From Bdellovibrio bacteriovorus (GTDB taxonomy: Bacteria; Bdellovibrionota; Bdellovibrionia; Bdellovibrionales; Bdellovibrionaceae): a DNA stretch of 64,000 bases. The stretch is taken from contig NZ_LUKE01000001.1 of the NCBI RefSeq assembly GCF_001592735.1, positions 806,001 to 870,000 on the forward strand, in the 5' to 3' direction. Both the position numbers and the translations under genes were made by a program. Shown piece by piece: positions 2,291-40,489 of the stretch (positions within the stretch are counted from its first letter, which is position 1; every line of letters begins with the position of its first letter). The notes beneath the pieces are model-generated. The model ran no database searches, was not told where the DNA came from, and saw nothing but the letters and a program-made list of their open reading frames with translations.

Positions 2291-3136
2291 CTACTTACCA
2301 GCTTCCGTTTTCGCACTTGCAGGGGCTCGCTTATAACCAGCGAACATCTCTGAAAGAACTTGAGCTTTATCTGGTTTCAACAAATTCATAATATCAGCGG
2401 CATTCTTCTTTTTCATACGTCCAAGTATTTCAACTGCCAAATCCTCGTCCATTGTCTCAAAGACTTTGGCCGCTTGCGGGGCTTTCATATTGGAATACAT
2501 TTGGACTAAAGTATCGACTTTTTCAGAATCGACTTTAACACGTTCTTCTAAAATGCCGGAAATCTTGGTGCGCATCCCTTCCAGATCCTTAAGGCGTTTA
2601 TCAAGTTCTTCTTTTTGAACTTGCAGTTCTGCTTCCATACGATTGAGCTCTTCTTCTCGTGCATCGAGTTCTTTTTTGCGATCATTGAGCTTTTGCAAGT
2701 GATCTAAATCCGAAGCCGTTAATGCCGCCGGTGCTTCAGGCTTTGCTTCTTTAGCTTCTTCTGGTTTTGTCGTGGAGGCGGCGGGAGCTGCGGGTTTAGC
2801 CGGTTCAGCGGCATAAGCTTCACCGCCCATGGTGATTTCAATGCGCTTTACAAAGCTTTCAACATCTTCATGATAAAGAAATCCATAGATGGCCATAAGC
2901 AAGCCCATGAATGAAACACCCACGATTTTCCATGGAATGCCGGATTTTTTTCTTTTCTTGGGCTGGCTCATTTTCATACGGCGACGGATTTGCTGTTCCA
3001 GTTCTTCTGATGAAAGATCTAGATCTAATTTGGGCGCATTTGATTTTTTTTGAAAGCGTACAGCGTTAGAGCGGGAAGATGTAGGATCAGCTGCTTTGCG
3101 TGCATTTTGGAAAAATTGATCGTATCCGCTCTTCAT
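2291..3136 (-). CDS. MotE-like flagellar protein (membrane-anchored coiled coil with MgtE-N/FliG-like domain)
   Basis: 281 aa. A cytoplasmic Lys/Arg-rich N-terminus leads to one transmembrane helix at about 71-90 (IVGVSFMGLLMAIYGFLYH). An Ala/Pro/Lys linker follows, then a long coiled coil (about 145-200, KELDAREEELNRMEAELQ), then a C-terminal helical domain (about 205-270) of the MgtE_N/FliG-like type with DTLVQMYSNMKAPQAAKVFE and EILGRMKKKNAADIMNLL. This layout matches MotE/FlbB-type proteins that act as periplasmic chaperones or scaffolds for the stator or motor. Its place between fliJ and fliK supports a flagellar role. It begins 6 bases after the fliJ stop. It is not a magnesium transporter, because the channel domain is absent. 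Confidence 0.82.
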   Translation of the reverse strand: MKSGYDQFFQNARKAADPTSSRSNAVRFQKKSNAPKLDLDLSSEELEQQIRRRMKMSQPKKRKKSGIPWKIVGVSFMGLLMAIYGFLYHEDVESFVKRIEITMGGEAYAAEPAKPAAPAASTTKPEEAKEAKPEAPAALTASDLDHLQKLNDRKKELDAREEELNRMEAELQVQKEELDKRLKDLEGMRTKISGILEERVKVDSEKVDTLVQMYSNMKAPQAAKVFETMDEDLAVEILGRMKKKNAADIMNLLKPDKAQVLSEMFAGYKRAPASAKTEAGK

Positions 3137-3142
3137 GTATTT

Positions 3143-3586
3143 TTATTCCTTCGCTTTAAAGCGCAAAATACTTTGTTCATCCATTTCTTTTTGATCGTCT
3201 TGCAGGCGTTTTTGACGATATTCTTCGAATTGGTTTTCGCGCATCTTTTCTATGATTTTATATTCCTGCGCGGCTTGTTTCAAAATTTCTCGGCGCGACT
3301 CGACCAATTTTTCCGCTTCTTGGACCTTCATCTTCTGTTTTTCGATCAAGACTTCCTGACCTTTCAAGAACTCATGAACCTGGGTCAGAGCTGGACCTTG
3401 CGAACCGCCTTGTTTTACAAGCTGGCCGGCACTTTCATGGGCCATGGTCTTTTGTTGAATCATGGAATTAAGCTTAGCGTTTTCTTGGTTCAAATACATC
3501 GTGGCTTCCTGAAAATCCTTTTGCTTCAGATTTTCCGTCAACTTGCGATGTTCTAAAACTTTTTGCAGTGGAAATTTAAATTTCAT
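3143..3586 (-). CDS. fliJ: Flagellar export chaperone / ATPase stalk FliJ
   Basis: 147 aa, the usual FliJ length. FliJ is a two-helix coiled coil that sits in the FliI hexamer like a rotor stalk and helps deliver export substrates. The sequence is almost entirely charged and helical. It opens with the typical FliJ start (KFKFPLQKVLEHRKLTENLKQ) and carries two long heptad-rich stretches. It lies 20 bases after fliI. Sequence identity in this family is low, so the call depends on the N-terminal motif, length and position after fliI. Confidence 0.9.
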   Translation of the reverse strand: MKFKFPLQKVLEHRKLTENLKQKDFQEATMYLNQENAKLNSMIQQKTMAHESAGQLVKQGGSQGPALTQVHEFLKGQEVLIEKQKMKVQEAEKLVESRREILKQAAQEYKIIEKMRENQFEEYRQKRLQDDQKEMDEQSILRFKAKE

Positions 3587-3606: not shown

Positions 3607-4935
3607 TTAAGCATTCATCAGAATCTGTTGCATCATTCTTACGGTCTGAGTGAATGTCGTGGGATCCTCGACTCTTTGCTTTAAGAAGTCATTCACCCCG
3701 TCGATGACCTTTACGGCCTTATCAATTTTTGGGTTGGAACCCGGTTTATAAGCACCAATATTAATTAAATCTTCGGCCTCTTTATAAACCGCCAATGTTT
3801 CACGCAGCTTTTGCGCTAAACGAGCATGTTCACTCGACGTCACGGCCCTCATCACCCGACTTGCGCTTTGCATGATATCAATGGCCGGGAAGTGGCCCTT
3901 TTGCGCCAAGGCACGACTTAATACGATATGTCCATCAACGATCGAACGAACCGAGTCCCCGATGGGATCATTCATATCGTCCCCTTCAACCAGAGTCGTA
4001 TAAAATCCTGTGATACTGCCTTCACCTTCAAAAGATCCGGCGCGCTCTAAAAGTTTTGGCAAGGTCGCAAATACACTGGGCGTGTATCCTTTTTGTGAAG
4101 GAGGTTCCCCGGTGCTCAGACCGATCTCCCTTTGGGCCATGGCAAAACGAGTCACTGAATCCATCATCAATAAAACATTCTTACCTTGCGAGCTAAAGTA
4201 CTCGGCTAAAGCGGTCGCCACATAGGCGCCTCGCATTCGCAGCAAAGGACTTTGATCGGAAGTCACACACACGACCACTGAACGTTTCATACCCTCAGGC
4301 CCCAAATCGTGTTCGATAAACTCACGGACCTCACGACCACGCTCACCAATCATCGCGATCACATTAACATCGGCATTGGTGTTTCGGGCCATCATTCCCA
4401 AAAGGACCGACTTACCCACACCCGAGCCTGCCATAATTGCGACACGCTGACCTTGCCCTGCGGTTAATGCACCATTAATGGCTCTAATGCCAAGGTCTAG
4501 GGGTTCCCGAATCGGGCGACGCATGAGGGGGTTACGAACTTCGCTATAAAGAGGAATTTCGCGGAAATTTTCAACTTCGCCTTTAGCATCCAACGGACGG
4601 CCTAAGCCATCAACGACGCGACCCAAAAGCTCATCCCCCGCTCGGACTGTCGCGATTTGACGATCCAGAGTGATTTTAGAACCTAACGCAACTCCACGCA
4701 TGTCGTTCAGGGCCATCATCAAGACGTGTTTGTCTTTAAAGCCCACGACTTCGGCCAAAAAAGATTTCTCCATGCCGGAAGGGTTGATCTTAACGATGCT
4801 GCCCACACTTGCACCCGGAAGATATCCCTTAATCAACATACCGTTGACCTCCGTCACCTTGCCACTATCCTTTGTTAAATGGATAGAGTTGACGACATCG
4901 GAATACTTTTCCAAATTCAAGGAAAGATCGCTCAT
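3607..4935 (-). CDS. fliI: Flagellum-specific export ATPase FliI
   Basis: 442 aa. This is the ATPase of the flagellar type III export apparatus, related to F1-ATPase beta. It has the Walker A AGSGVGKS at about 169-176, the Walker B VLLMMDS at about 253-259, the GERGREVREF motif, and the export-ATPase segment GYTPSVFATLPKLLERAG. Length is normal. The ATG shares its A with the fliH stop (TAATG), so the two genes are translationally coupled. FliH, directly upstream, is its regulator and FliJ, downstream, is its stalk. Identity is certain at family level. Type III secretion homologues are excluded by the flagellar neighbours. Confidence 0.98.
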   Translation of the reverse strand: MSDLSLNLEKYSDVVNSIHLTKDSGKVTEVNGMLIKGYLPGASVGSIVKINPSGMEKSFLAEVVGFKDKHVLMMALNDMRGVALGSKITLDRQIATVRAGDELLGRVVDGLGRPLDAKGEVENFREIPLYSEVRNPLMRRPIREPLDLGIRAINGALTAGQGQRVAIMAGSGVGKSVLLGMMARNTNADVNVIAMIGERGREVREFIEHDLGPEGMKRSVVVCVTSDQSPLLRMRGAYVATALAEYFSSQGKNVLLMMDSVTRFAMAQREIGLSTGEPPSQKGYTPSVFATLPKLLERAGSFEGEGSITGFYTTLVEGDDMNDPIGDSVRSIVDGHIVLSRALAQKGHFPAIDIMQSASRVMRAVTSSEHARLAQKLRETLAVYKEAEDLINIGAYKPGSNPKIDKAVKVIDGVNDFLKQRVEDPTTFTQTVRMMQQILMNA

Positions 4936-5744
4936 TAGCTTGCAGCCTTGTCTTTAACTTTAGGAATATTTTCAGAAAGAACACTCCACAGCTGCTCTAC
5001 ACGTTGTTCAATACGCGCATCGACTTCGCCATAGTTTGTTTCTACGATACAGCCGCCATCACTGACCTCGGCACTTGGCTCAAAACGAATGCGCTTAATG
5101 AATTCAAACTCACGGCCGGATTCTTTTTTTAGCTCCTCGAGGAATTCAAACTGCTTTTGGGAAACTCGCACAGTGATATTTTCTTCGTCTTGCGACAAGC
5201 TCACCGCATCTTTAAGGATCTTCACCATGGCCTCATTATTGCCTTCGAGCTCCGTTTTCGCTAAGCGTGCGGCCATTTGAAAAACAAGTTTAATCAAATG
5301 CGCTTCGTTAAAGGTCGCCATTTCAGATTTAATATCTTTGATACCGTTTAGAAGAGTATCCATGCTTTGCATGCTTTCCGCGATTTGTGCCGAAACCTTG
5401 TCGAAAGCCTCTTTACGGCCTTCTTCCAGACCCAGTTTATAAGCTTCTTCATAGGCACCCTCTTGAATCTCTTTTAATTTTTCAAGAGCCGCTTCTTCGA
5501 CTTTTTCTTCTTCGGTATTTTGCTCTACTTGATCGATGCCTGTTTGCACTCGAACCGCATCATTCATGCGGAAATCAGAACCCTTGGTTTTTTCTGCTAA
5601 GTATTGCAAAGCTTGCTTAGGGGTGCCCAAGTCAAATCGAGCTGGCACAAATTCCAAAACAGTTTTATCCGCCACATCCTTAGGAAGGACGGCCTTGATT
5701 TTTGGAGATTGACCGGCAGAGCCGCCTTTATTAGACCATTGCAT
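4935..5744 (-). CDS. fliH: Flagellar export apparatus regulator FliH
   Basis: About 269 aa. FliH binds FliI, keeps the ATPase in check and docks it at the C-ring. The middle (about 85-140) is acidic and helical, with GAYEEAYKLGLEEGRKEAF, the Gly-spaced pattern typical of FliH. The C-terminal domain (about 165-255) ends in CIVETNYGEVDARIEQRVEQL, a conserved FliH/V-ATPase subunit E-like motif. The ATG at 5744 overlaps the fliG stop by 14 bases. A GTG five codons further upstream (5759) is possible but has no visible ribosome site. The stop shares a base with the fliI start. Confidence 0.93.
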   Translation of the reverse strand: MQWSNKGGSAGQSPKIKAVLPKDVADKTVLEFVPARFDLGTPKQALQYLAEKTKGSDFRMNDAVRVQTGIDQVEQNTEEEKVEEAALEKLKEIQEGAYEEAYKLGLEEGRKEAFDKVSAQIAESMQSMDTLLNGIKDIKSEMATFNEAHLIKLVFQMAARLAKTELEGNNEAMVKILKDAVSLSQDEENITVRVSQKQFEFLEELKKESGREFEFIKRIRFEPSAEVSDGGCIVETNYGEVDARIEQRVEQLWSVLSENIPKVKDKAAS

Positions 5745-6765
5745 CTTCTGAACCACCACGAGCGATTAAGATTTTTCCTTCGGCTTCTAAGCGACGAGCC
5801 ACATTGACGATCTCTTGTTGAGCTCCTTCGACGTCGGACAAACGAGAAGGTCCCATATTCGCCAAGTCTTCGCGCAACATCTCGGCCGCACGGGCGGAGA
5901 TATTTTTGAGGATCTTGTTGCGAATATCTTCGCTGGCTGTTTTGAGGGCCAAAAGAAGTTTTTCGTTCGGAACCTCTTTGAGAAGAGCTTGAATACCACG
6001 GTCGTCGATTTTCGCGATATCGTCGAAGACGAACATAAGCTTGCGGATCTCTTCGGCAAGAAGAGGATCTTTTTCTTCCAAGCGCGACATGATCGCCGTT
6101 TCCGTGTTTTTGTCCATAACGTTGAGCATTTCGGCGACAGGCTGAACCCCGCCCAGTGCTGCTTGTTCGACCGTAGCTGTATTTGATAATTGATTTTTCA
6201 AAACGCGATCGATTTCCGCGATAAGCTCTGGATCGACGTGTTCTAAGTTCGCCATACGCAGAACCACTTCGGCTTGCAAGGCTTCAGGAAGACGTTTAAG
6301 GACCTCACCTTTTTTCTCTGGCTCTAAGTGCGCCAAGATAACGGCAACGGTTTGTGGATGTTCATTCACTAAGAAGGTCGCTAACGACTTCGCATCCACC
6401 ATCTCTAAGGATTCTAACGAGCGAGATCCACCGGCATTGATATTCAAACCGCCCAGGATACCACGGGCGCGCTCTTCTCCCAGAGCATCCACGATCGTGT
6501 CCTTAGCGGAGATACTTTCAGAGAAAATATAATCTTCAGTCTCTGATATCATTTCATAGAACTCTTCTAGGACACGTTTAGTCACGTGAACCGGAACGAC
6601 ACGCAATTTGCTCATTTGGTTGATAAGTTTTCGAATGTCTGCGTCATCCATACGGCGCAATAAAACTTTCACCGCATCACGGCCAAGATAATTAATCAGG
6701 ATCGCGGCTTTATCAAAGCCCTTCAAATGTTCGTATTCGATATTATCCGATTTATGAAGTTTCAT
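5731..6765 (-). CDS. fliG: Flagellar motor switch protein FliG
   Basis: 344 aa from the ATG at 6765. FliG forms the top of the C-ring, bridging FliF to FliM and contacting the stator to make torque. The N-terminal domain starts with FDKAAILINYLGRDAVKVLL. The middle domain has the EHPQTVAVILAHL motif at about 150-165. The C-terminal domain has the charged helix FVFDDIAKIDDRGIQALLKEV with torque residues. A strong GGAAGG lies seven bases before this ATG, which overlaps the fliF stop as TAATG. An upstream ATG at 6789 would extend into fliF and is not needed. Confidence 0.97.
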   Translation of the reverse strand: MKLHKSDNIEYEHLKGFDKAAILINYLGRDAVKVLLRRMDDADIRKLINQMSKLRVVPVHVTKRVLEEFYEMISETEDYIFSESISAKDTIVDALGEERARGILGGLNINAGGSRSLESLEMVDAKSLATFLVNEHPQTVAVILAHLEPEKKGEVLKRLPEALQAEVVLRMANLEHVDPELIAEIDRVLKNQLSNTATVEQAALGGVQPVAEMLNVMDKNTETAIMSRLEEKDPLLAEEIRKLMFVFDDIAKIDDRGIQALLKEVPNEKLLLALKTASEDIRNKILKNISARAAEMLREDLANMGPSRLSDVEGAQQEIVNVARRLEAEGKILIARGGSEDAMV

Positions 6766-8414
6766 TACGTATCCTTCCTTACCAGCCACATGCCAAAGGC
6801 ATTGGCGGCCTTTTCTTCGTCACGACCCATGCTGGCCATGATACGATCTTTAAGAAGTTCGCTTTCCGCTTTTTCTGGATCAATAGATTCTTGCAATACC
6901 GGTAACGCCGTCGACATACCTGGAAGCGTGTTATCAACCGATTGCAGCTCTTCAAGTTCTTCGATAGTTCTTGGCAACATTTCCTCTACGGAATCTTGGA
7001 AGCTGTCCGTGATCCACTGCATGAAGGGACGCACGACGATGAAGAAGAACAAGGCCAAGCTGAATCCTAACAAAGCCCATTTGAATAAAGCATGGATCAG
7101 TTTTTTACGCTCTAAAGTCGTTAGGATTTTTTCAGATTCTGAAAAGTCCTCTGGTTGGAACTGAATATTTTCAATACGAACACTGTCACCACGAGCTTGG
7201 TTAAAGCCAATCGCATTTTTGATCAGGTCTTCGTATTTTTTAAGTTCTTCGGGTGAACGAGCCGTCCATTTAGTTTCAGTTGTACCGTCTTCTTTTGTAG
7301 TTGTGGCTGTAATACCGTCAACGACAACCGCCACACTTACACGCTCTAATGCTCCCGCCGCTTCACGGATATTGCGGGTCGCCTTAGAAACTTCGAAGTT
7401 AATGGTTTTAAGTTCTTTTTTGACATCTTGTTTAAATCCCACCGTGCCTTGATCTTCGGCACCTGGCAAATTCGAACGAGACCCCGGAACACCAGATGGA
7501 TTCACGCGGGAACCATCCAAAGATTCTTCTTCGGATTGTTGTGAACGAATCGCCGTTTTGTCGGGATCCACAGATTCCTCAACAGAAGAAATCACCCGGT
7601 GATTCAATGTCGCGTCTACTTTCGCGACTACTTTCGCGTGTCCTACCACTTTTGTAAGGATATCTTCAACACGGTCTTTAAGATCATTTTCAATTTTTGC
7701 TTTCAGATCTAACAATTCGTTAGATCCACCGGTCGTCCCATCAGACGTCCGAGTTAAAACTTTACCACGTTCATCCAAAACCGCGACTTTATCTGCATCT
7801 AAACCCTCAACGGCATTGGCGACAAGATAACGAATCCCGCGAATTTGTTCGGGAGCTAATTCTTTACCTTGACGAAGTTCCACGACAACCGATGCGGAAG
7901 CTTGGCTGCCTTCTTCAAGAAAAGTCTTTTTATTAGGAAGAGCTAAGATTACTTTAGATTGTTTGACGGCTGTCAGGGTGTTGATGGCTCTCATCAACTC
8001 GCCTTGAAGGGCCCGTTGATAGTTGATTTTTTGCGCGTAAGAATTCATCCCAAAATCTTGCTTATCAAAAATCTCTAGACCGATAGAGCCCATCTTTGGG
8101 GAACCGATTTCAGACATCAACGTCATTTGCGTAGAGTGTAAAAGTTCTTTTGGAATAGCGATTGTTTTACCTTCGTCACGCAATTGGAAAGGAATGTTTT
8201 TTTCATTCAACTTTGCCACCATGGACGACACTTGCTCAGATGGGATGTTAGTGAAAAGAGGAACATAGTCTTTGCCTGATGCCATGAAAAGCATCGTCAT
8301 CAACGCAAAAACCGCAATCACGGTCACTGCAATGACAGAAAGTCTTTTAGTTGGGCCTAAGTTCTTAAAGAACTCGCGAAACTGAATGACCAATCCACCA
8401 AAAATCTTGTTCAA
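6765..8414 (-). CDS. fliF: Flagellar MS-ring protein FliF
   Basis: 549 aa. FliF builds the membrane ring on which the motor and export gate assemble. There is a transmembrane helix near residues 24-46 (LSVIAVTVIAVFALMTMLFM). Periplasmic ring-building motifs follow, including LLHSTQMTLMSEIGSP, the DKQDFGMNSYAQKINYQRAL segment and RQGKELAPEQIRGIRYLVANA. A second transmembrane helix lies near 440-465, and a short acidic cytoplasmic tail binds FliG. The start is TTG, preceded by GGAGG with 5 bases spacing. Length is normal for the family. It is coupled to fliG by TAATG. Confidence 0.97.
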   Translation of the reverse strand: MNKIFGGLVIQFREFFKNLGPTKRLSVIAVTVIAVFALMTMLFMASGKDYVPLFTNIPSEQVSSMVAKLNEKNIPFQLRDEGKTIAIPKELLHSTQMTLMSEIGSPKMGSIGLEIFDKQDFGMNSYAQKINYQRALQGELMRAINTLTAVKQSKVILALPNKKTFLEEGSQASASVVVELRQGKELAPEQIRGIRYLVANAVEGLDADKVAVLDERGKVLTRTSDGTTGGSNELLDLKAKIENDLKDRVEDILTKVVGHAKVVAKVDATLNHRVISSVEESVDPDKTAIRSQQSEEESLDGSRVNPSGVPGSRSNLPGAEDQGTVGFKQDVKKELKTINFEVSKATRNIREAAGALERVSVAVVVDGITATTTKEDGTTETKWTARSPEELKKYEDLIKNAIGFNQARGDSVRIENIQFQPEDFSESEKILTTLERKKLIHALFKWALLGFSLALFFFIVVRPFMQWITDSFQDSVEEMLPRTIEELEELQSVDNTLPGMSTALPVLQESIDPEKAESELLKDRIMASMGRDEEKAANAFGMWLVRKDT

Positions 8415-8530: not shown

Positions 8531-8869
8531 TTAAACCTGCATCTTCATAACTTCTTGATATGCATCGATGATTTTATTTCTCACTTGAACCATGACTTTC
8601 AAAGCGATATCCGCTTTTTCCGCCGCGATCATAACATCTGCCACGTTATCAGTTTTACCCGTAGCAAGATCTTGCATTGCTTTGTCTGATGATTTTTGCA
8701 TTTCGTTGACGCCGCTCACCGCTTCTTTCAAAGTGTCGGCAAAACTTTTTCCTGCACCCGTTGTCGAAGTAGAGTTAGAAACTCCGCCTTCAATGGCAAG
8801 CGATTGAGAGTCTCGGGTGATACCGGTGTCAAGAAACCGATTCGAATTTGAAACTGTAAAACCTGCCAT
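8531..8869 (-). CDS. fliE: Flagellar hook-basal body protein FliE
   Basis: 112 aa, normal for FliE. FliE is the adaptor between the MS ring and the proximal rod and an early export substrate. The C-terminal half has the family pattern: SFADTLKEAVSGVNEMQ, then DVMIAAEKADIALKVMVQVR, then NKIIDAYQEVMKMQV at the end. It follows flgC by 78 bases and precedes fliF, the standard flgB-flgC-fliE-fliF order. Confidence 0.96.
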   Translation of the reverse strand: MAGFTVSNSNRFLDTGITRDSQSLAIEGGVSNSTSTTGAGKSFADTLKEAVSGVNEMQKSSDKAMQDLATGKTDNVADVMIAAEKADIALKVMVQVRNKIIDAYQEVMKMQV

Positions 8870-8947: not shown

Positions 8948-9391
8948 CTATCTTCCTATCTCTAAGGCAGACAGAGCCATATCTTTTGACGCTTGAAGAG
9001 CTGTCACATTGGCCTCATAGGAACGCGATGCCTGTATCATATTGGTCATCTCTTCCATCAAATTGATGTTGGGATATGCGACGTATCCTTCAGGATTTGC
9101 ATCAGGATGGTCCGGCTCATATTTAAGTAACGGCGCCTTGCGATCTGAGATAATATCCGTAACCTGGACCCGCTGAAAACTGCCCTTTGGATCTGTAGAC
9201 GTAATGATCTCGCCAAAATTCTTAGCATCTGGCATCGACTCGAAAACCACGTCCTTACGGCGATAAGGCCCCCCTTCAGGAGTCTGGGTCGTATTAATAT
9301 TGGCGATGTTACTCGCAATGGTGTTCATGCGCATTCTTTGCGCCGCCATACCACTGCTGGAAACTCTCATGCCCGTTAAAAAATCAGCCAT
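8948..9391 (-). CDS. flgC: Flagellar proximal rod protein FlgC
   Basis: 147 aa. FlgC is one of the proximal rod proteins in the periplasmic drive shaft. The N-terminus has the axial-protein motif SSGMAAQRMRMNTIASNIAN. A middle loop with GGPYRRKDVVFE follows, and the C-terminus has the matching helix NMIQASRSYEANVTALQASK. Its ATG shares a base with the flgB stop (TAATG). Length and motifs are typical. Confidence 0.97.
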   Translation of the reverse strand: MADFLTGMRVSSSGMAAQRMRMNTIASNIANINTTQTPEGGPYRRKDVVFESMPDAKNFGEIITSTDPKGSFQRVQVTDIISDRKAPLLKYEPDHPDANPEGYVAYPNINLMEEMTNMIQASRSYEANVTALQASKDMALSALEIGR

Positions 9392-9804
9392 TATCTACCT
9401 TCACTCGCTGCATACTTTAACGCTGCCATCTTTTTATTGATCAGCTGCAACGCCGCTTTGTACATGACGGCATTTTCTGACAACGCAGACATTTCTTTTT
9501 CTACATCAACGGTGTTGCCATCATTATTAACTTGGCCTTCGGGATCTTCGTAAATGTCGGGACGAGTTTTTGAGATGGACGTACCGCCTACAGCAAAATG
9601 TTCGCTGTTGCTGGTGCTTAAGCCCTTGGCGCCATCAGTATCGAGAGCTCTTTGCAAGGCCCCTTCGAAATCAAGTTTTTTTGCTTGATAGCCCGGCGTC
9701 TCGGCATTGGCAATATTTGATGAAGTCACGTTGTGACGAAGTTGGCGCATGGCCAAGGACGTCGCTAAGGCATTGGTTGTTTTGTCAAAAAGACCGCTGC
9801 TCAT
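9391..9804 (-). CDS. flgB: Flagellar proximal rod protein FlgB
   Basis: 137 aa. FlgB is a proximal rod subunit. The N-terminal motif MRQLRHNVTSSNIANAETPGYQAKKLDFE is present (residues about 18-46), and so is the closing helix NAVMYKAALQLINKKMAALK. It overlaps the upstream regulator gene by 4 bases (ATGA) and the downstream flgC by 1 base. It is therefore translated as part of the same operon, with the regulator immediately ahead of it. Confidence 0.97.
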   Translation of the reverse strand: MSSGLFDKTTNALATSLAMRQLRHNVTSSNIANAETPGYQAKKLDFEGALQRALDTDGAKGLSTSNSEHFAVGGTSISKTRPDIYEDPEGQVNNDGNTVDVEKEMSALSENAVMYKAALQLINKKMAALKYAASEGR

Positions 9805-10643
9805 AACACCCCTTCCATTCTATATTCGTTCAATTTATTTCTTAATGTTCTAATACTAATCCCTAACATCTGCGCCGCGCGAGTGCGGTTCTGCGCTGTA
9901 AGTTCCAAGGTCTGTAAAATAAGACGCTTTTCCACCTCAGAAAGGGACATCCCTGGCGCAAAATCCAGGGCTAGATCTTCATTAACAGCCTCAAACTGAA
10001 TAGCGTCGGCTTCAATGTGTGAAGATTTTGCAAGAACCACGGCTCTTTCCACCACGTTCTCAAGCTCGCGGATATTGCCAGGCCAATTCCAAGAGTTCAA
10101 ACGACCATAAGCTTCGGCCGATAAAGACATCCCATTTTTGCCGTGCATAATTTGTGATACTTCTAAAATGAAATTCACGATTTTGCCGAAATCAGTCGCG
10201 CGATCTTCCAAGCGTGGCATTTCTAAATGAACCACCGCGAGTTTATAAAACAAGTCCTGACGGAATTGCTCTTGTTTTACCAAGGCACGAATATCACGAC
10301 GTGAAGTTGAAATGAAACGCGGTCGAGTCGCATCAGTACGCTCTACCAACTTCATCAATTCCCCTTGAAGGGCTAGACTTGCACAATCAAGATCTTCGAT
10401 CAAAAGGGTGCCGCCGTCGACGCGGTTGAAATCAAATCCGCCCGAGTTTTTGCAATCCAAAACATAAAGTCTTGGCGAGCGACTTTTAGCGTAAATGTAA
10501 CGAGCCAAACTAGTTTTACCCACGCCCGCTTCACCCACCACCAATAAACTGGCTTGAGTAGCCGCAAGTTGCAAACCCAGTTGCTTCACTTCATGCATCT
10601 TTCTATCTTCAATAGTCAACGCATCGAAATCAAAGTAAGACAT
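9801..10643 (-). CDS. NtrC-like AAA+ transcription regulator lacking the GAFTGA loop
   Basis: 280 aa. An AAA+ sigma-54-activator-type domain starts at once, with no receiver domain. Walker A is GEAGVGKT at about 37-44 and Walker B is GGTLLIEDLD at about 77-86. RFISTSRRDI matches sensor I and WNWPGNIRELENVVERAVVL the sensor II region. A Fis-type helix-turn-helix lies at about 245-275 (NRTRAAQMLGISIRTLRNKL). The stretch between Walker A and B is only about 35 residues, roughly half the usual, and has no GAFTGA. The loop that contacts sigma-54 is therefore missing. It may work as a DNA-binding modulator or non-sigma-54 regulator of the flagellar genes. It sits in the flagellar operon, overlaps flgB by 4 bases and follows the TPR gene by 8. 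Confidence 0.85.
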   Translation of the reverse strand: MSYFDFDALTIEDRKMHEVKQLGLQLAATQASLLVVGEAGVGKTSLARYIYAKSRSPRLYVLDCKNSGGFDFNRVDGGTLLIEDLDCASLALQGELMKLVERTDATRPRFISTSRRDIRALVKQEQFRQDLFYKLAVVHLEMPRLEDRATDFGKIVNFILEVSQIMHGKNGMSLSAEAYGRLNSWNWPGNIRELENVVERAVVLAKSSHIEADAIQFEAVNEDLALDFAPGMSLSEVEKRLILQTLELTAQNRTRAAQMLGISIRTLRNKLNEYRMEGVL

Positions 10644-10651
10644 CCAAACTC

Positions 10652-13441
10652 CTATTTACCTTGCTCGTTCTCAGACATAGCTGGAATTCTTTTAATATAT
10701 TTCTTGTAGTCATCGCGCCAACTGGAGTTCTTAAGCTGCTCTTGAGCTAAGTTTTTCCAGAATTCGCTTTTATCACCTTTAAAATCACTCCAAGCTTCCG
10801 CGGCCTTTTTAGACTCGCCACGCTTAAAGTAAATTTGTCCTAACTTGTAACGAATCGAAGAAAGGGGACGTGTTTCTTCGTATTTTTCTAAGAGTTTTTC
10901 GAATGCCGCGATCGCTTTGTCGTCTTCACCCTTGGACAAAAGCGTTTCACCCAAAGACTCTAAGGCCTTGGCGTGAACAGCCGGAGCTACTTTACCGGAA
11001 TCTGTTTGTAACTGATCCACCATTTCCAAAGCTTGGATGGCTTCCGGAAAACGACCTTGCTTCAATTGAAGCTCTGCCAGTTTCAAATAAGGTTCCGCGA
11101 CGAGTTCCGGCTGACCCTTCCAGGTTCTTAAAAGCTCACCCAAGTAACGGATGGCAGATTCATTATCGCCGCGTTTTTCCAACAACTTCACCGCTATGTT
11201 GACACGCTCAATTTGCGCGTGATCCGGAAGCTTTTCCGGAGTTTTAATATTTTTTAAATGCTCATAAGCTTGATTGTATTTTTGTTCTTGCGTGAAGACC
11301 GCAGCCAAACGCAGATTCAACTCGTCTTCGCCGGGCGTTTGCTCTTTCACTTGAATCTCTTTTGCTTCAGGAGTTCCACGGATGGCGTAGGTGCGATTAA
11401 GAACATCTTTATAATATTTTTCGGCTTCGTTGGGGGCGCCGCCCAGTTCAAAAGAACGACCGACGTAATATTTCGTATCTAGACGTTTAGAATTTTTTAA
11501 CCAGGTATCCGCATACTGACTGTGGGTGCGTAAGCTCTGGATAAAGTTTCCTGATTCCACTTCAGATTCCAACTTATCGTTAATATTGGAAACGATACGA
11601 TTGGTCATAAGTGGTACGTCAACCGAAGTCGGATTTTCTTTATAGTACTTTGAAAGAAGGTCGATAGATTTTTGATATTCTTTACGACGAGTGTAACCGT
11701 CAGCCACCATCACCGTCGCGAATTGCTCGATATTTGGCAAATCTACTTTTTTAGCCAGTGACATGATTTCTTCAACCGCACTGCGAACTTCTTTGGGCTT
11801 CATCGCCGTCATACGCGCACTTAACAAACGCAAACGAGCAATCACCGCATTTGGACTTTCGCCATAACGGAAGTACGTTTCTAAATAAGCACCCATCACC
11901 CGCGATGTATCGGCACCGAAGATGTCTAACAATTCACCCACCCGGGTCATCGCGTAAGCGGCATTTTCATCACTCGGAAATTTTTTGATAAAGTCACGAT
12001 AGACGTCCAAGCTCTTATTGTATTTACCCATCAAAAATAAGGACTCTGCCTGGTTATAGTAAGCGTTCGGGTAAGTGCCCTGAGCTTCAGGATACTTTTT
12101 TAAAGAAGCTTCATAGCTTTCGACCGCTTTTGGATAATTCTTAGATCGGAACCACACATCCCCTTTGCGGAAGGAAGCTTCTACTTTCAAATCGCGATTG
12201 GTCGAATTCTTTTCAACATTATCAAATTGCTCGACCGCTTCGACACTGCGATTTAACTTCATGAACGCAAGACCTGAACCGATGCGCGCCATATCTTTAG
12301 AGATCGAATTGTTGTCCGGAAAGTTTTTATTTTCGATATGTTCATTAAAGGCCCGCAAAGCCCCTAAGAAGTCGCCTCTTTCTAAAGTGTAGTAACCAAT
12401 TTTAAGGGATGTACGCTCCGCAAGCGGAGACTTTGGATATTTTTCCACCGCTTCTTTATAAAGCTGCATCGCCTCTTCATAACTTGCGATGCGTTTTTCA
12501 CTTTGCCATAAAGCCAAGTGCACGTCGGCCGTCATAAAATCGATGATTTCGTTATATTCAGACTTCGGATATTTTTCTTTAAACCATTTTTGCGTTTTTA
12601 AAAAAACCGAGTAACGTTGTTTTTCAAACAGAGTTAAAAGCAAACGGGCCTGTTTGTTTTCTTCTGACGCTTGCGGGCTGATTTCATAAATGGAAGGTGT
12701 CACCTTCATTTTATCCCAATACGTCATCGGCGATTCCATCATCGGGAATGGGATATAATAATTGTCGCGCGCGCGGATCATCGCCTCTTCTTTGATTTCA
12801 TAATCTTTGATCGCGAAACGATCATAATCGGGATCGCCCCCATCAAAGATACCTGAACGAGCTGGACCATCATTCATCGCAACAGAAACACCGTTATTAG
12901 CGATCACCAAAGAATCTGCCGTGGCAGGCTTACGTCCTTTTGCAACCTTGTCAGTTTGTTCTTTTACTACTGGTTTAGATACCTTAGCTGGTAATTTTGT
13001 TGGCAGAGTTTCGCTTTTATCTTCCTTCTTCGCAACCGGAGCCGCTTTGGACGAAGGGTTCACGTAAAAATCGATAATCAATCTTGACGGTTGGTCCGTC
13101 AGATAATCGAAAGAATCAATCCCTTCATTAGCCAAGCTAAACGAAATGATATGCTTTCCATCTGGACCTTTTTGGTCAACAGAAACGCCTGTCACAAACT
13201 CACTCTTAAAAGAATTCAGCTTTTGGATAGTCGCTTCATCCATCGCAGGTACACTCATCTGAACGACAGGTTTTCCCTTACGATCCAAGCGTTTAACGTC
13301 ATAGTCCCAGCTTTGTTGACCGCTAAGTTCCATGTGAACCGTGTCGCCCTGAAATTGAATAGTACCGTTCACGCCAGCAGCGTGTACCGCTAGACCAAAG
13401 AACAGGCTTCCTGCCACGATGATTTGAATGATAGTGTTCAC
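10652..13441 (-). CDS. Large exported TPR protein, first gene of the flagellar operon
   Basis: 929 aa. A signal peptide at 1-22 (IIQIIVAGSLFFGLAVHAAG) leads to a beta-rich N-terminal domain (about 25-130, ending PSRLIIDFYV) that resembles an AMIN-type envelope-binding module. A Lys/Pro linker follows. From about 265 to 900 there are many degenerate tetratricopeptide repeats, such as AMQLYKEAVEKYPKSPLAER and ESYEASLKKYPEAQGTYPNAY. It is probably periplasmic and may scaffold the motor or a wall-linked structure; this is inferred from position and domains. The start is GTG with GAGGGG eight bases upstream. A strong sigma-54 promoter match lies just ahead of it. The regulator gene follows after 8 bases. 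Confidence 0.8.
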   Translation of the reverse strand: MNTIIQIIVAGSLFFGLAVHAAGVNGTIQFQGDTVHMELSGQQSWDYDVKRLDRKGKPVVQMSVPAMDEATIQKLNSFKSEFVTGVSVDQKGPDGKHIISFSLANEGIDSFDYLTDQPSRLIIDFYVNPSSKAAPVAKKEDKSETLPTKLPAKVSKPVVKEQTDKVAKGRKPATADSLVIANNGVSVAMNDGPARSGIFDGGDPDYDRFAIKDYEIKEEAMIRARDNYYIPFPMMESPMTYWDKMKVTPSIYEISPQASEENKQARLLLTLFEKQRYSVFLKTQKWFKEKYPKSEYNEIIDFMTADVHLALWQSEKRIASYEEAMQLYKEAVEKYPKSPLAERTSLKIGYYTLERGDFLGALRAFNEHIENKNFPDNNSISKDMARIGSGLAFMKLNRSVEAVEQFDNVEKNSTNRDLKVEASFRKGDVWFRSKNYPKAVESYEASLKKYPEAQGTYPNAYYNQAESLFLMGKYNKSLDVYRDFIKKFPSDENAAYAMTRVGELLDIFGADTSRVMGAYLETYFRYGESPNAVIARLRLLSARMTAMKPKEVRSAVEEIMSLAKKVDLPNIEQFATVMVADGYTRRKEYQKSIDLLSKYYKENPTSVDVPLMTNRIVSNINDKLESEVESGNFIQSLRTHSQYADTWLKNSKRLDTKYYVGRSFELGGAPNEAEKYYKDVLNRTYAIRGTPEAKEIQVKEQTPGEDELNLRLAAVFTQEQKYNQAYEHLKNIKTPEKLPDHAQIERVNIAVKLLEKRGDNESAIRYLGELLRTWKGQPELVAEPYLKLAELQLKQGRFPEAIQALEMVDQLQTDSGKVAPAVHAKALESLGETLLSKGEDDKAIAAFEKLLEKYEETRPLSSIRYKLGQIYFKRGESKKAAEAWSDFKGDKSEFWKNLAQEQLKNSSWRDDYKKYIKRIPAMSENEQGK

Positions 13442-13476
13442 TCCTTGAACCCCTCTGCTTACTCACATAATGCTGT

Positions 13477-13492
13477 TGCACATACGGTGCCA
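13477..13492 (-). promoter_or_regulatory. Sigma-54 (-24/-12) promoter for the flagellar operon
   Basis: On the minus strand the sequence reads TGGCAC-CGTAT-GTGCA. The consensus is TGGCAC-N5-TTGCA, so this has one mismatch, and the invariant GG and GC are exactly 10 bases apart. A start of transcription about 12 bases downstream would give a leader of roughly 25 bases before the GTG at 13441, enough to hold its GAGGGG ribosome site. Flagellar middle genes are commonly sigma-54 dependent in proteobacteria. Confidence 0.7.
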
Positions 13493-13496
13493 TGCC

Positions 13497-13516
13497 TTGC
13501 CAAGGTCCATTGGCAA
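13497..13516. promoter_or_regulatory. Inverted repeat TTGCCAA-N6-TTGGCAA next to the sigma-54 promoter
   Basis: Perfect 7-base arms separated by six bases, starting just upstream of the -24 element of the flagellar operon promoter. The size and position fit a dimeric regulator site, but no binding protein can be named from sequence. Confidence 0.4.
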
Positions 13517-13553
13517 ATAAGTTCAAGATGGGCAAAAAGTTTCATAGAATTTC

Positions 13554-13567
13554 TGTCAGGCCTGACA
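13554..13567. promoter_or_regulatory. 14-bp perfect palindrome, possible enhancer site
   Basis: TGTCAGGCCTGACA is fully palindromic. It lies roughly 90 to 100 bases upstream of the predicted flagellar operon transcription start, a usual distance for an NtrC-family enhancer site, and about 80 bases before the divergent lipoprotein gene. It could serve either gene. Assignment as an enhancer is inference. Confidence 0.45.
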
Positions 13568-13646
13568 AACTCATGACAGAGACATTGGTCGAGAATCATG
13601 AGAGCATGGTCAATAATAATGACGAAGTTTCCGATAGATAGGTGAT

Positions 13647-14135
13647 ATGAAAAACCACATCATTGTTTGCAGCATGTTTATACTTCTTGGAGGATGTGTC
13701 TCGGTTTCCCTGCCGGGAAAAAAAGTTGTTTCCGCCAAGGACGTGGCGTTTGAAGCGCCTTCCTCGCCGTTTAAAGAAATCAAAATGTCCAACGTCGATA
13801 AGGCTTGGCTGAGTGATAAAACCGCGAACACCATTTCTTATTTTTCTGAATGCGGCAATACCGCAGATCCCTCACTGGAAACTTTAGAGAGTGATGCGGT
13901 TTCAGCGATCAATGACTTAAAAGTTATTAAATCGGAGGACCTTCAGTTTAACGGTCGCGAAGCCCGTCAAACTATCGTCACCGGAAAATTAGACGGTGTG
14001 CCGGTCAAGATGTCCTTTGTTCTTCTTAAGAAAAATGGCTGCAATTACACCTTAAGTTATGGCGGAACCGCCGCGCAGTTTTCCCAAGAGGAATCTGCTT
14101 TTGAAAACTTTAAAAGGAATTTTAGAGCACCCTGA
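13647..14135 (+). CDS. Lipoprotein of unknown function, head of the Mla operon
   Basis: 162 aa. A lipoprotein signal ends in the lipobox LGGC at about 14-17, so the mature protein is membrane-anchored at Cys17. The rest is a small soluble domain with two further cysteines (SECGNTADPS and KKNGCNYTLSYG) that might form a disulfide. No family was recognised. Its TGA stop shares a base with the mlaE start (TGATG), so it is co-translated with the transporter. It may be an accessory part of the lipid-transport system, which is inference from position only. Confidence 0.8.
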   Translation: MKNHIIVCSMFILLGGCVSVSLPGKKVVSAKDVAFEAPSSPFKEIKMSNVDKAWLSDKTANTISYFSECGNTADPSLETLESDAVSAINDLKVIKSEDLQFNGREARQTIVTGKLDGVPVKMSFVLLKKNGCNYTLSYGGTAAQFSQEESAFENFKRNFRAP

Positions 14136-14917
14136 TGGATCACGTCGGTTTGAAGTTTTCCGTATTCATGATTGAAATCTTACGCTTCGTTGGGGGCGTG
14201 GGACTATTGACGCGCGATTTCTTTAAAGAGCTTAAAGGTCGCTTTTACTGGAAACTTTTATCTGAACAGATTTACCAGGTCGGCATGCGTTCGTTGCCTT
14301 TGATTGTGATCACTTCGATCAGCATTGGTATGGTGATGTCTTTACAATTCGGACTGGGCTTAGAAAAGTTTGGCGGAAAAATGTACGTCCCAAAACTTTT
14401 AGCCGTCACCATCTTGCGCGAAATGGGTCCGGTATTTACAAGCTTGATGCTTGCCGCCCGTGTCGGCGCCGGGATCGCCAGCGAAATTGGCAGTATGGTC
14501 GTCACTCAACAAATTGATGCAATTCGTGCGCTGGGAACCTCGCCGATTAAAAAAATTGTGATTCCACGCGTGTTAGCGTGTTTGATTACATTACCGATCT
14601 TGGTTTCTATCGCCAATGTTGTGGGCAATATGGGTGGGTTGATCATCGGTGCGACCGAGTTGAATCTAGATCCTAATTTTTATCTTTTAAAAGTTCTGAC
14701 CACTTCAAGCATTGGTGATTACCTTTCAGGATTTGGCAAAACGTTCTTTTTTGCCTTTTTCATCGCCATTCCTTCTTGTTATTTTGGTTTGAATGTTAAA
14801 AACGGAACGAAAGAAGTTGGTATCGCGACAACCAAAGCGGTGGTGGTTTCTTCTATTTTGATTTTGGTCGGTGACTTTTTCTTAACAAAACTTTTCTGGA
14901 TCGTGGAGAAACTATGA
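14135..14917 (+). CDS. mlaE: MlaE-family phospholipid ABC transporter permease
   Basis: 260 aa, the normal length. MlaE is the inner-membrane permease of the MCE transporter that moves phospholipids between the inner and outer membranes. It has five or six hydrophobic segments and conserved features: SLPLIVITSISIGMVMSLQF near 50-70, ILREMGPVFTSLMLAARVGAG near 92-112, and the EIGSMVVTQQIDAIRALGTSP segment that meets the ATPase. It overlaps mlaF by 4 bases (ATGA). The MCE subunit follows. Confidence 0.96.
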   Translation: MDHVGLKFSVFMIEILRFVGGVGLLTRDFFKELKGRFYWKLLSEQIYQVGMRSLPLIVITSISIGMVMSLQFGLGLEKFGGKMYVPKLLAVTILREMGPVFTSLMLAARVGAGIASEIGSMVVTQQIDAIRALGTSPIKKIVIPRVLACLITLPILVSIANVVGNMGGLIIGATELNLDPNFYLLKVLTTSSIGDYLSGFGKTFFFAFFIAIPSCYFGLNVKNGTKEVGIATTKAVVVSSILILVGDFFLTKLFWIVEKL

Positions 14918-15663
14918 GCAACGAAAAACGATCTGGCGTTATTGAAGTCGTCGACTTTCATAAGTCCTTCGGAAACAAAAAAATTCATTCTGGTGTCAAC
15001 TTCTATGTTCGCCGCGGGGAATGTCTCGGTCTGATCGGCGGATCGGGCACCGGAAAAAGTGTTCTTTTAAGAAGCCTGGTGGGATTAGAAAAACCTGACT
15101 CCGGGCAAATTCTTATCGACGGCACGGACATCTCAGGAATGAAAGAACGCGAGCTGGTTGAAATTCGTAAAAAAGTGGCTTACGTATTCCAAGGTGGCGC
15201 TTTATTTGATTCAATGACGGTATACGAAAATCTCGCCTATCCTTTGCGCGAACATTTTAAATTTACTGAAAAAGAAGTCGAGACAAAAATTCGCGAGCAG
15301 CTTGAAGAGTTTGGCCTCCCCGGCTCCGAAAATCTTTACCCCGGGAATCTTTCAGGTGGTATGCAAAAGCGCGTGGGCTTAGCACGCGCGATGATGATGC
15401 ATCCCGAAGTGGTTTTATATGACGAGCCCACGGCCGGGTTAGATCCTTACAATACCAAAAAAATCCAAGAATCTGTTTTGTCTTTAAAGGCCAAAGGAGT
15501 GACCTCGATCTTAGTCACTCACGACATGCCAACAGTTTACGCCGTGTGCGATAAAGTGGCCTTATTACTGAATGGTCGCATCGGTGAGCAATATACCATT
15601 GATAAATTAAAACAAGAGCCTGACGGACCTATGTTCCAGTTCATTAACGGAGAAAGCGCATAA
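14914..15663 (+). CDS. mlaF: MlaF-family ABC transporter ATP-binding protein
   Basis: 249 aa. This is the cytoplasmic ATPase that powers the MlaE permease. Walker A is GGSGTGKS at about 42-49. The ABC signature is LSGGMQKR at about 146-153. Walker B is VVLYDEPTAGLDP at about 166-178, and the switch histidine is in VTHDMPT. It overlaps mlaE by 4 bases and mlaD by one base (TAATG). The FQGGALFDSMTVYENLAYPL stretch is typical of the Mkl/MlaF group. Confidence 0.97.
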   Translation: MSNEKRSGVIEVVDFHKSFGNKKIHSGVNFYVRRGECLGLIGGSGTGKSVLLRSLVGLEKPDSGQILIDGTDISGMKERELVEIRKKVAYVFQGGALFDSMTVYENLAYPLREHFKFTEKEVETKIREQLEEFGLPGSENLYPGNLSGGMQKRVGLARAMMMHPEVVLYDEPTAGLDPYNTKKIQESVLSLKAKGVTSILVTHDMPTVYAVCDKVALLLNGRIGEQYTIDKLKQEPDGPMFQFINGESA

Positions 15664-16475
15664 TGGAATCGCAATCAAGTACACAAATCAAAGTGGGCAT
15701 TTTCCTTTCGGTGGGTATCATCTTTATTTTAGGCTCCATCTTTTTTTTGGGCGCCGACAAAGCTTTGTTCACGAACTACATACGCATTCATGCTCACTTC
15801 GACCAAGTTCAAGGACTCTCTGAAGGCAGTGTGGTTTCTCTCTCTGGTATCAATGTGGGTAACGTCGAAAAAATCACCTTCCTTCCGGAAGTAAATGCCT
15901 TAGATGTAAAAATGAAAGTGAATGAAAATTTTCGCGCGCGCATTCGCAAAGGATCACAAGTGGAAATCCGCACCCAAGGGGCTTTGGGGGATAAGTTTGT
16001 CTTTATCATTCCAGGTGATCCGAAAGCAGAAATGGTAGATCAAGGAGATGTCCTTGAAGTCGCGCGCGCCACGGATTTAATCGGGGTGATTTCAGAGCGC
16101 GGTGGTGAAACCGGAAAGATTTTTGATATTATCAACGACCTTCATAAGATGACCAGTGCCATGACAGCGAATAACCGCATGGAGCGTCTGATGGCAAATC
16201 TTGAAAAGGCATCAAACAGCCTTAATGCCGCAGGGACTCAGGCAGATAAGATGATCACTCAAATTAACTCCAATGGCGGTGGAGAGAAGCTCGCCAAATC
16301 TATTGATCGCATGAATTCGATCATGACGAAGATAGACAAAGGTGAGGGATCTTTAGGAGCCTTGATCAATGACCCGTCAATTCATAACCAGCTTAAAAAT
16401 ATGCTGGGTGGATCGACGCGTAAAAACAACGTCAAGTCCCTGTTACGAACCTCTATTGAGAAAGAAGAAAAGTAA
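15663..16475 (+). CDS. mlaD: MlaD-family MCE-domain substrate-binding protein
   Basis: 270 aa. A single N-terminal transmembrane helix (about 11-30, VGIFLSVGIIFILGSIFFLG) is followed by one MCE domain (about 38-120, with VQGLSEGSVVSLSGINVGNV and RIRKGSQVEIRTQGALGDKF). A helical tail comes next (about 150-265), rich in Asn, Lys and Met and ending in VKSLLRTSIEKEEK. MlaD forms the periplasmic hexamer that carries lipid above the permease. It is the last gene of the operon. No separate mlaB or mlaC is seen nearby. Confidence 0.95.
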   Translation: MESQSSTQIKVGIFLSVGIIFILGSIFFLGADKALFTNYIRIHAHFDQVQGLSEGSVVSLSGINVGNVEKITFLPEVNALDVKMKVNENFRARIRKGSQVEIRTQGALGDKFVFIIPGDPKAEMVDQGDVLEVARATDLIGVISERGGETGKIFDIINDLHKMTSAMTANNRMERLMANLEKASNSLNAAGTQADKMITQINSNGGGEKLAKSIDRMNSIMTKIDKGEGSLGALINDPSIHNQLKNMLGGSTRKNNVKSLLRTSIEKEEK

Positions 16476-37080: not shown

Positions 37081-37760
37081 TGCACGTTCGCTCTATTGCC
37101 TTTGATCTTGATGATACTTTGCTAGATACCTCGGCAATTTTAATTCCGTCGGCGGCAAAACGCGCGTGTGAGGCCATGCTCAGCGCAGGCTTGCACTGCC
37201 AATTGGGGGAATGCCTGCAAATGCGCCAAGAGCTTTCGGTTCTCAATTCCCACACCGAAATCTTTTCTAGCATCATCAAACGTTTTGGGGCCACCCATCC
37301 CGAAAAAGCCATGCAAGGGGCCATCGAAGCCTTTTATAATCCTTTCGTGCCGGCACACTTGCCTCTTTTATCCGGAGCTTTAGAAAATCTGGAGCGCTTA
37401 AAAAAGAACTATAACTTGTACCTCGTAACGATGGGATCGCTAGAAGGGCAAAAAAAGAAAATTGCCGCTTTAGATATCGAAAAGCATTTTAAAAAAATAT
37501 TTATAGTCGACAGTCTTTCGGGAAATCGCAAAGAATCGGCCTTTAAAGAAATTCTGAACGAAGAAGGCCATGCTCCCGAAGAGTTGCTGAGCGTCGGCAA
37601 CCGCCTGACCAGCGAAATTCGCGACGGCAAAAAAGTGGGCGCAAAAACTTGTTACTTTGCTTACGGGGAACACGTCGGTGAAAAAGCCCAACAACCCGAA
37701 GACCATCCTGATTACACCATCTATCACCATCGAGAGCTGATTCCTCAATGCGGACTTTAA
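37080..37760 (+). CDS. HAD-superfamily hydrolase
   Basis: 226 aa from the ATG at 37080; the longer frame to 37029 lies inside the peptidase gene. HAD motif I is AFDLDDTLLDTS near residues 6-17. Motif II is in LVTMGS, and the Lys of motif III and acidic motif IV are near KESAFKEIL and LSVGNRLTSEIRDGKK. It is a YjjG-like or phosphoglycolate-phosphatase-like phosphatase; the substrate is unknown. It overlaps the histidine kinase gene by 13 bases. Confidence 0.83.
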   Translation: MHVRSIAFDLDDTLLDTSAILIPSAAKRACEAMLSAGLHCQLGECLQMRQELSVLNSHTEIFSSIIKRFGATHPEKAMQGAIEAFYNPFVPAHLPLLSGALENLERLKKNYNLYLVTMGSLEGQKKKIAALDIEKHFKKIFIVDSLSGNRKESAFKEILNEEGHAPEELLSVGNRLTSEIRDGKKVGAKTCYFAYGEHVGEKAQQPEDHPDYTIYHHRELIPQCGL

Positions 37761-40207: not shown

Positions 40208-40341
40208 CGTTTAAAACCATAATATCAGCCCTCGGCGGTTGTCCAGAATTCAAGCAAAACCGATTCACCTTTTTAGAGATTTTATTCACATTCAGCCCGA
40301 CCCTAGACTGGCTAACTAGAATCTGTGGGTAAACTTTACCT

Positions 40342-40360
40342 ACTCCGGCAGCGCCGGAGT
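40342..40360 (+). terminator. GC hairpin upstream of the response regulator
   Basis: ACTCCGGC and GCCGGAGT pair as a perfect 8-bp stem with loop AGC. It lacks a T-tract, so it may be a leader structure rather than a terminator. Confidence 0.4.
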
Positions 40361-40409
40361 GAAAGACAGTCCAGTTTTGTGGTCCTGAAACCCTTTGCTG
40401 GCGCGGATT

Positions 40410-40429
40410 TTTTGACAGTCCCGTCAAAA
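40410..40429. promoter_or_regulatory. Inverted repeat TTTTGAC-N6-GTCAAAA
   Basis: Perfect 7-base arms, six bases apart, 60 bases before the response regulator start. It could be an operator for that gene. The binding protein is unknown. Confidence 0.38.
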
Positions 40430-40489
40430 TCCCTCATCCTGAATTTGTTAGTTCTGTTCACTCAAGAACCCACCATGGAAGGAAGGTTC

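Follow-up and report, generated by a model that had tools for sequence, protein, structure and literature searches.

The window analysed here, a stretch of 64,000 nucleotides from Bdellovibrio bacteriovorus (contig NZ_LUKE01000001.1), carries near its left end a series of flagellar genes that are all read on the minus strand (Table 1). The first gene of the series encodes a large TPR-repeat protein, matched in 115 of the 127 genomes of the order, and it is followed by a gene for an enhancer-binding protein (EBP) and by further flagellar genes, among them those for the rod, the MS ring and hook length. Beyond the window, the series continues after fliK with flgD, a PF12611 gene and flgE (L241), which brings it to about 15 genes. 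Because these genes share a strand and are separated by short gaps, we infer that they form a single transcript. On the opposite strand, a divergent group of genes at 13647-16475 comprises a putative lipoprotein and, as read by eye from the translations, transport genes that look like those of the MlaE/MlaF/MlaD type. The intergenic region shared by both groups holds the sequence features with which this work is mainly concerned.

Table 1. Genes and sequence features of the flagellar operon and its control region (positions are those of the window).
Feature	Position	Strand	Basis
TPR-repeat protein, 929 aa, operon gene 1	10652-13441	minus	Pfam TPR families
Enhancer-binding protein (EBP), 280 aa, operon gene 2	9801-10643	minus	AAA+, Fis-type helix-turn-helix; no receiver, no GAFTGA
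flgB (rod)	9391-9804	minus	Pfam Flg_bb_rod; position before flgC
flgC (rod)	8948-9391	minus	Pfam
fliE	8531-8869	minus	Pfam FliE
fliF (MS ring)	6765-8414	minus	Pfam YscJ_FliF
fliG	5731-6789	minus	Pfam FliG
fliH	4935-5759	minus	Pfam FliH
fliI-like ATPase	3607-4935	minus	Translation by eye; position
fliJ	3143-3586	minus	Pfam FliJ
MgtE_N/coiled-coil protein	2291-3136	minus	Pfam
fliK (hook length)	489-2255	minus	Pfam Flg_hook
Predicted sigma-54 -24/-12 core, TGGCACCGTATGTGCA	13477-13492	minus	Upstream of the TPR gene in 23/23 congeneric loci and in 77/80 others
Predicted transcription start	13466	minus	Inferred from consensus, 12 bases after the -12 GC
Upstream element TGTCA-N4-TTTGTC-N6-GACA, core = 14-bp palindrome	13550-13578	minus	Position matrix, 85/98 loci
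7-6-7 inverted repeat TTGCCAA-N6-TTGGCAA	13497-13516 (arms 13497-13503 and 13510-13516)	minus	Present; only the promoter-distal arm is conserved
Near-invariant block, TTTGCC at 13536-13531 and 13517-13512	13511-13548	minus	Alignment of 23 congeners; direct repeat
GACC-AN-GTC dyad	13581-13590	minus	Mostly conserved within the genus (alignment)
Inverted repeat GTTC-AAGGAGT-GAAC, covering the ribosome-binding region and GTG start	13436-13450	minus	Most congeners; L044, L056, L059

The core promoter and its base at -15

The candidate sigma-54 promoter reads, on the minus strand, TGGCAC (13492-13487) followed by GTGCA (13481-13477), so that the GG (13491-13490) and the GC (13479-13478) are separated by exactly 10 bases in a TGGCAY/TGCW context. 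With respect to the consensus TGGCAC-N5-TTGCA there is a single mismatch, a G replacing the first T, at position -15. An earlier note on this DNA had described the site as TGGCAC-N5-GTGCA, with one mismatch and a 10-base GG-GC gap, and on re-reading the sequence all its base-level statements proved correct. The leader of about 25 bases that it gave to the TPR gene also agrees with a predicted start near 13466 and the GTG at 13441.

A bare match of this kind says little. Genome-wide, the pattern TGGCAYN5KTGCA has 5 matches versus 4 for the reversed control, and the looser TGGCAYN6TGCW 39 versus 22, frequencies so close to chance that the match was rejected as stand-alone evidence and the weight of the argument falls on conservation. 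In this regard, an alignment of the sequences upstream of the TPR gene revealed that TGGCA and TGTGCA are invariant in all 23 congeners, within flanks that diverge over much of their length. In the other genera of the order Bdellovibrionales, TGGCAYN6TGCW was found before the orthologous TPR gene in 77 of 80 loci; by chance, a region of a few hundred bases would be expected to contain it roughly once per several hundred to a thousand cases. Among the three misses, one locus lies at a contig edge (L135), another has a protein match that starts at residue 105 (L172) and only the third is genuine (L160). Moreover, rpoN is present in the window genome and was detected in 120 of the 127 genomes of the order, including every examined genome without the operon EBP. 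The scan of relatives that the earlier note had called for confirms, as far as comparative sequence data go, the predicted sigma-54 promoter before the TPR gene as real and conserved across Bdellovibrionales.

The mismatch at -15 deserves separate attention. Among 100 loci this position is occupied by G (57), A (22) or C (21) and never by T, and the tree of the loci outside the genus requires 22 or more changes at this position, all of these statistics being only roughly corrected for relatedness. If T is given one third of the chance at every change and mutation bias is ignored, the probability of its never arising is in the order of 1 in 7,500. The consensus T is avoided at the promoter of the TPR operon, and its exclusion is specific to this promoter, since T occupies -15 in 8 of 14 other intergenic matches in the same genome, including one before fliL-fliM. 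In sigma-54 promoters T is the preferred base at -15 rather than an obligatory one, and pyrimidine changes around -17 to -15 of the nifH promoter alter the affinity of the holoenzyme. The avoided T opens the question of why the promoter stays below consensus.

Outside the window, a canonical sigma-54-like site, TGGCATTGCTGTTGCT (L089, G000:C1:747405-747420), precedes by about 66 bases two successive genes, the first FliL-like and the second FliM-like, and possibly represents a second sigma-54 flagellar promoter.

The upstream element and the neighbouring sequence blocks

The 14-bp palindrome TGTCAGGCCTGACA (13554-13567) precedes the predicted start by about 94 bases. The earlier note had placed it about 90 bases upstream and likened it to an enhancer site, a view that is strengthened by the finding that the palindrome forms the conserved core of a wider element, kept in the relatives at a nearly fixed and helix-phased distance from the promoter. 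When scored with a position matrix built from the loci of modal spacing, which are part of those scored and whose class is thus favoured, the element was significant (p<=0.02) in 85 of 98 loci: all 23 congeners, 30 of 32 loci with an EBP lacking GAFTGA, 28 of 37 with an intact EBP and 4 of 6 without the EBP gene. TTTGTC and TGGCA are mostly 76-78 bases apart, and other loci have distances near 64-69, 87-93 and 99-103. Given the origin of the matrix, the independent part of this evidence is found in the off-class distances, which, up to 115 bases, recur at intervals of about 11-12 bp and keep the phase of the main class (p ~3e-4, uncorrected for relatedness).

The element has also changed and disappeared in places. 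Its two arms show a coordinated change to TTGGC...GCCAA in five loci (L060, L063, L064, L066 and L071), the palindrome is degraded in four congeners (L009-L012), and about a quarter of the intact-EBP loci have no recognisable element. Four loci hinted at a strict co-loss of the EBP gene and the dyad, an idea that was rejected because L133 and L168, both without an EBP gene beside the TPR gene, keep the element; for the same reason the operon EBP may not be the reader of the element, or not its only one. A search of public genomes for the exact core TGTCAN4TTTGTCAGNNCTGACA gave 5 matches, four of them followed by this promoter, and the genomes that combine the element with the promoter are named Bdellovibrio or Bdellovibrionaceae. 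Within the genus, the arrangement of TTTGTC with a -24/-12 site recurs across genomes only at this operon, among the matches listed. These observations support the putative role of the conserved, helix-phased dyad as an element that behaves like an enhancer site.

Closer to the promoter, the 7-6-7 inverted repeat reported in the earlier note is indeed present where it was described, and its reading as a control site did not survive comparison: in the alignment of congeners only the promoter-distal arm (TTTGCCAA) is conserved, the proximal one being replaced in relatives, and the repeat was rejected as an operator. The distal arm belongs to a near-invariant block in which the two copies of TTTGCC are 19 bases apart. 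Located between the element and the promoter, this block is better conserved in the genus than the palindrome. A 12-codon reading frame within it (ATGAAACTTTTTGCC...) was discarded as not coding, given that the substitutions, inspected by eye, ignore codons and that several of them alter residues. The inverted repeat that spans the start of the TPR gene is possibly a translational or an operator element.

The enhancer-binding protein of the operon

The product of the second gene is composed of an AAA+ domain, a lid and a Fis-type helix-turn-helix (PF02954, 7e-14), and no Response_reg match, that is, no receiver domain, was detected with Pfam in its 280 residues. Its best NCBIfam model is FlbD, with 189.9 bits, far under the 750-bit equivalog cut-off. 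The alignment with orthologs from other families revealed that the GAFTGA stretch is missing from the window EBP, and the deletion of the predicted contact loop is plain from that alignment. Regarding the nucleotide-binding motifs, Walker A is present (GEAGVGKT) and Walker B reads LLIEDL instead of LFLDEI. The opening of sigma-54 promoters requires a GAFTGA-bearing EBP (PMC3162934, PMC12316311), and EBPs without this motif do not activate sigma-54 (PMC3162934).

The loss is not peculiar to the window genome. GAFTGA is missing in all congeners and in all other Bdellovibrionaceae examined that have the EBP gene, and present in most EBPs of the other families of the order. In a FastTree phylogeny of the TPR protein, which includes some long branches, absence of the loop or of the gene is compatible with a single loss basal to the main family clade (35 rows, support 100), with further losses outside this clade in L079 and L159 and in L164; the EBP gene itself has been lost several times. 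Comparison of the sequences shows that in Bdellovibrionaceae the EBP of the second gene either lacks the GAFTGA loop or is absent altogether, and yet the predicted promoter persists.

Despite its missing loop, the protein does not look abandoned. The pN/pS ratio of the EBP is 0.17 overall and 0.09 in its helix-turn-helix, compared with 0.24 for the TPR gene, which indicates purifying selection on the EBP, and its frame is intact in all congeners examined and in most of Bdellovibrionaceae. In the genus g16 (L060-L066, L136-L139, L153 and L161) the EBPs are about 240-257 aa long, with an eroded AAA+ domain and an intact helix-turn-helix.

Regulatory scheme, alternative readings and known systems

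The scheme that we regard as probable combines a sigma-54 promoter, its activation by another EBP, regulation of the operon by its own loop-less EBP and a weak base at -15. The promoter and the upstream protein-binding element would together drive the flgB-fliF-fliK-flgE operon. Compared with the earlier note, which saw a full sigma-54 control region for about twelve flagellar genes, the promoter and the upstream element are retained, the 7-6-7 repeat drops out and the operon becomes longer, reaching flgE. Since the operon EBP of Bdellovibrionaceae is without GAFTGA or missing, another, intact EBP most likely acts there and would supply the ATPase that opens the promoter; this protein may share the upstream element, as the element survives in two genomes that have no EBP gene there. 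The loop-less EBP would bind the dyad element and tune its own operon without contacting sigma-54. We read it as a DNA-bound, non-catalytic regulator because its helix-turn-helix is nearly frozen, and its most likely action would be that of a feedback repressor, as with FlbD at fliF in Caulobacter. Finally, the avoided T at -15 would keep polymerase binding weak and so make transcription strictly dependent on a DNA-bound activator. More tentative, and held by us with somewhat less than even confidence, is the joint proposal that loop-less variants originated repeatedly within the order and that the sigma-54-blind EBP owes its retention to a dedicated, non-catalytic regulatory role, in which it would bind the enhancer of its operon and either recruit or exclude the intact EBP while the sub-consensus -15 enforces dependence.

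As to the activator, the window genome encodes 12 intact EBPs, eleven of which match the GAFTGA pattern used, and in an analysis of their presence and absence no candidate followed flagella. The protein L111 was promising in the aflagellate congener G009, but 4 of 6 aflagellate genomes carry it; L110 offered a better fit (4/4 versus 1/6), which fails after allowing for 12 candidates. The genome G009, a Bdellovibrio congener with 95% completeness, has no match to FliF or to the full TPR protein and is for that reason probably aflagellate. Within the window, a histidine kinase gene (37748-39619, plus strand) and a gene for an intact EBP with GAFTGA, receiver and helix-turn-helix (40325-41893, plus strand) likely form a two-component pair; the ortholog of the latter is missing in G009 and present in 4 of 6 aflagellate genomes.

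An alternative that we consider unlikely would make the loop-less EBP the DNA-binding subunit of a hetero-oligomer, to which an intact EBP would give the GAFTGA loops and ATP hydrolysis, both proteins jointly activating the promoter. The nearly frozen helix-turn-helix and the Walker A kept in the window EBP would suit such a role, potential partners abound among the 12 intact EBPs, the most similar helix-turn-helix being that of L117, and the control of flagellar genes by two EBPs is known in Rhodobacter sphaeroides, according to the title of a reference in PMC3162934. The presence and absence of the intact EBPs, however, picks out no partner, as it does not follow flagella, and the AAA+ domain is so eroded in L060-L066 that it would fit poorly in a mixed hexamer. 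It is quite improbable, in turn, that the loop-less EBP is a remnant decaying without a role, with the element read only by an unrelated intact EBP. Repeated loss of the gene, survival of the element without it in L133 and L168 and partial erosion of the AAA+ domain are what such decay would produce, but the strong purifying selection described above, with values for the whole protein and for its helix-turn-helix below that of the TPR gene, and the frames that remain intact in all congeners examined and most of the family argue against it.

Two further readings concern the DNA sites. The palindrome might serve the lipoprotein and transporter genes that begin at 13647 instead of the flagellar promoter, given its location between the two gene groups, some 80 bases from the divergent ATG, but this is very improbable, because its distance to TGGCA stays at 76-78 bases or about one turn off though the sequence farther upstream differs among genera. 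Hardly credible is a repressor operator in which TGGCAY-N6-TGCW mimics a sigma-54 site and GCAC-N5-GTGC forms a small dyad. In its favour, the pattern is close to its chance frequency in the genome and -15 is off consensus in every locus. Against it, TGGCAT in many loci breaks the dyad and suits sigma-54, 12 consensus positions at fixed spacing (TGGCA, Y, TGC, W) hold across the order, the start codon is at a distance appropriate for a promoter and rpoN is nearly always present.

Returning to the preferred scheme, of a sigma-54 promoter opened by another EBP and regulated by a loop-less one, part of it is of an already known kind, namely the combination of an upstream site with a flagellar promoter of the sigma-54 type. 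What is new is a predicted sigma-54 promoter kept beside an EBP that is, by its sequence, blind to sigma-54. The conserved control region of an operon for the MS ring, rod and hook makes its predicted start and operator accessible to direct testing, and the repeated loss of the loop with retention of the promoter constitutes a natural experiment in the importance of the different parts of an EBP.

Flagellar gene control in Bdellovibrio has been treated in the searchable literature mainly around FliA. The attack-phase regulon of this sigma-28 factor in B. bacteriovorus belongs to the same genus and the same field of control, and the FliA motif TTAAG-N16-CCGATA was reported in 92 of 140 attack-phase promoters, with no strong motif in the other third (PMC3627812). 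In that searchable literature, which leaves most subscription papers out of reach, we found no sigma-54 promoter or tier described for Bdellovibrio. The polar-flagellate programs of FlrC, FleR and FlgR (PMC7064773) resemble the present case in that sigma-54 promoters, together with an EBP, serve the rod and hook genes, and FlrC is among the closest solved structures to the operon EBP. Those proteins, however, are complete response regulators, each with its cognate kinase (PMC7064773), whereas the EBP of the second gene is devoid of receiver and loop, and the promoter here would also cover the MS-ring genes.

In Caulobacter, FlbD represses fliF at an upstream ftr site (PMC3930126), which likewise links a sigma-54 EBP of the FlbD kind to the fliF genes and to a site upstream of the operon. 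The Caulobacter protein differs in having a receiver and GAFTGA and in repressing fliF at an early promoter that is not of the sigma-54 type, while in our case the predicted promoter of the operon is of that type and the EBP, without receiver or GAFTGA, reaches 190 of the 750 bits required by the model. With respect to the missing loop, the closest parallels are TyrR, DhaR, HupR, VpsR and YplP (PMC3162934), proteins of the EBP family that lack the sigma-54 contact motif. Of these, TyrR, DhaR and HupR reportedly work with sigma-70 (PMC3162934); unlike in those systems, the promoter beside the loop-less EBP appears to remain of the sigma-54 type throughout Bdellovibrionaceae.
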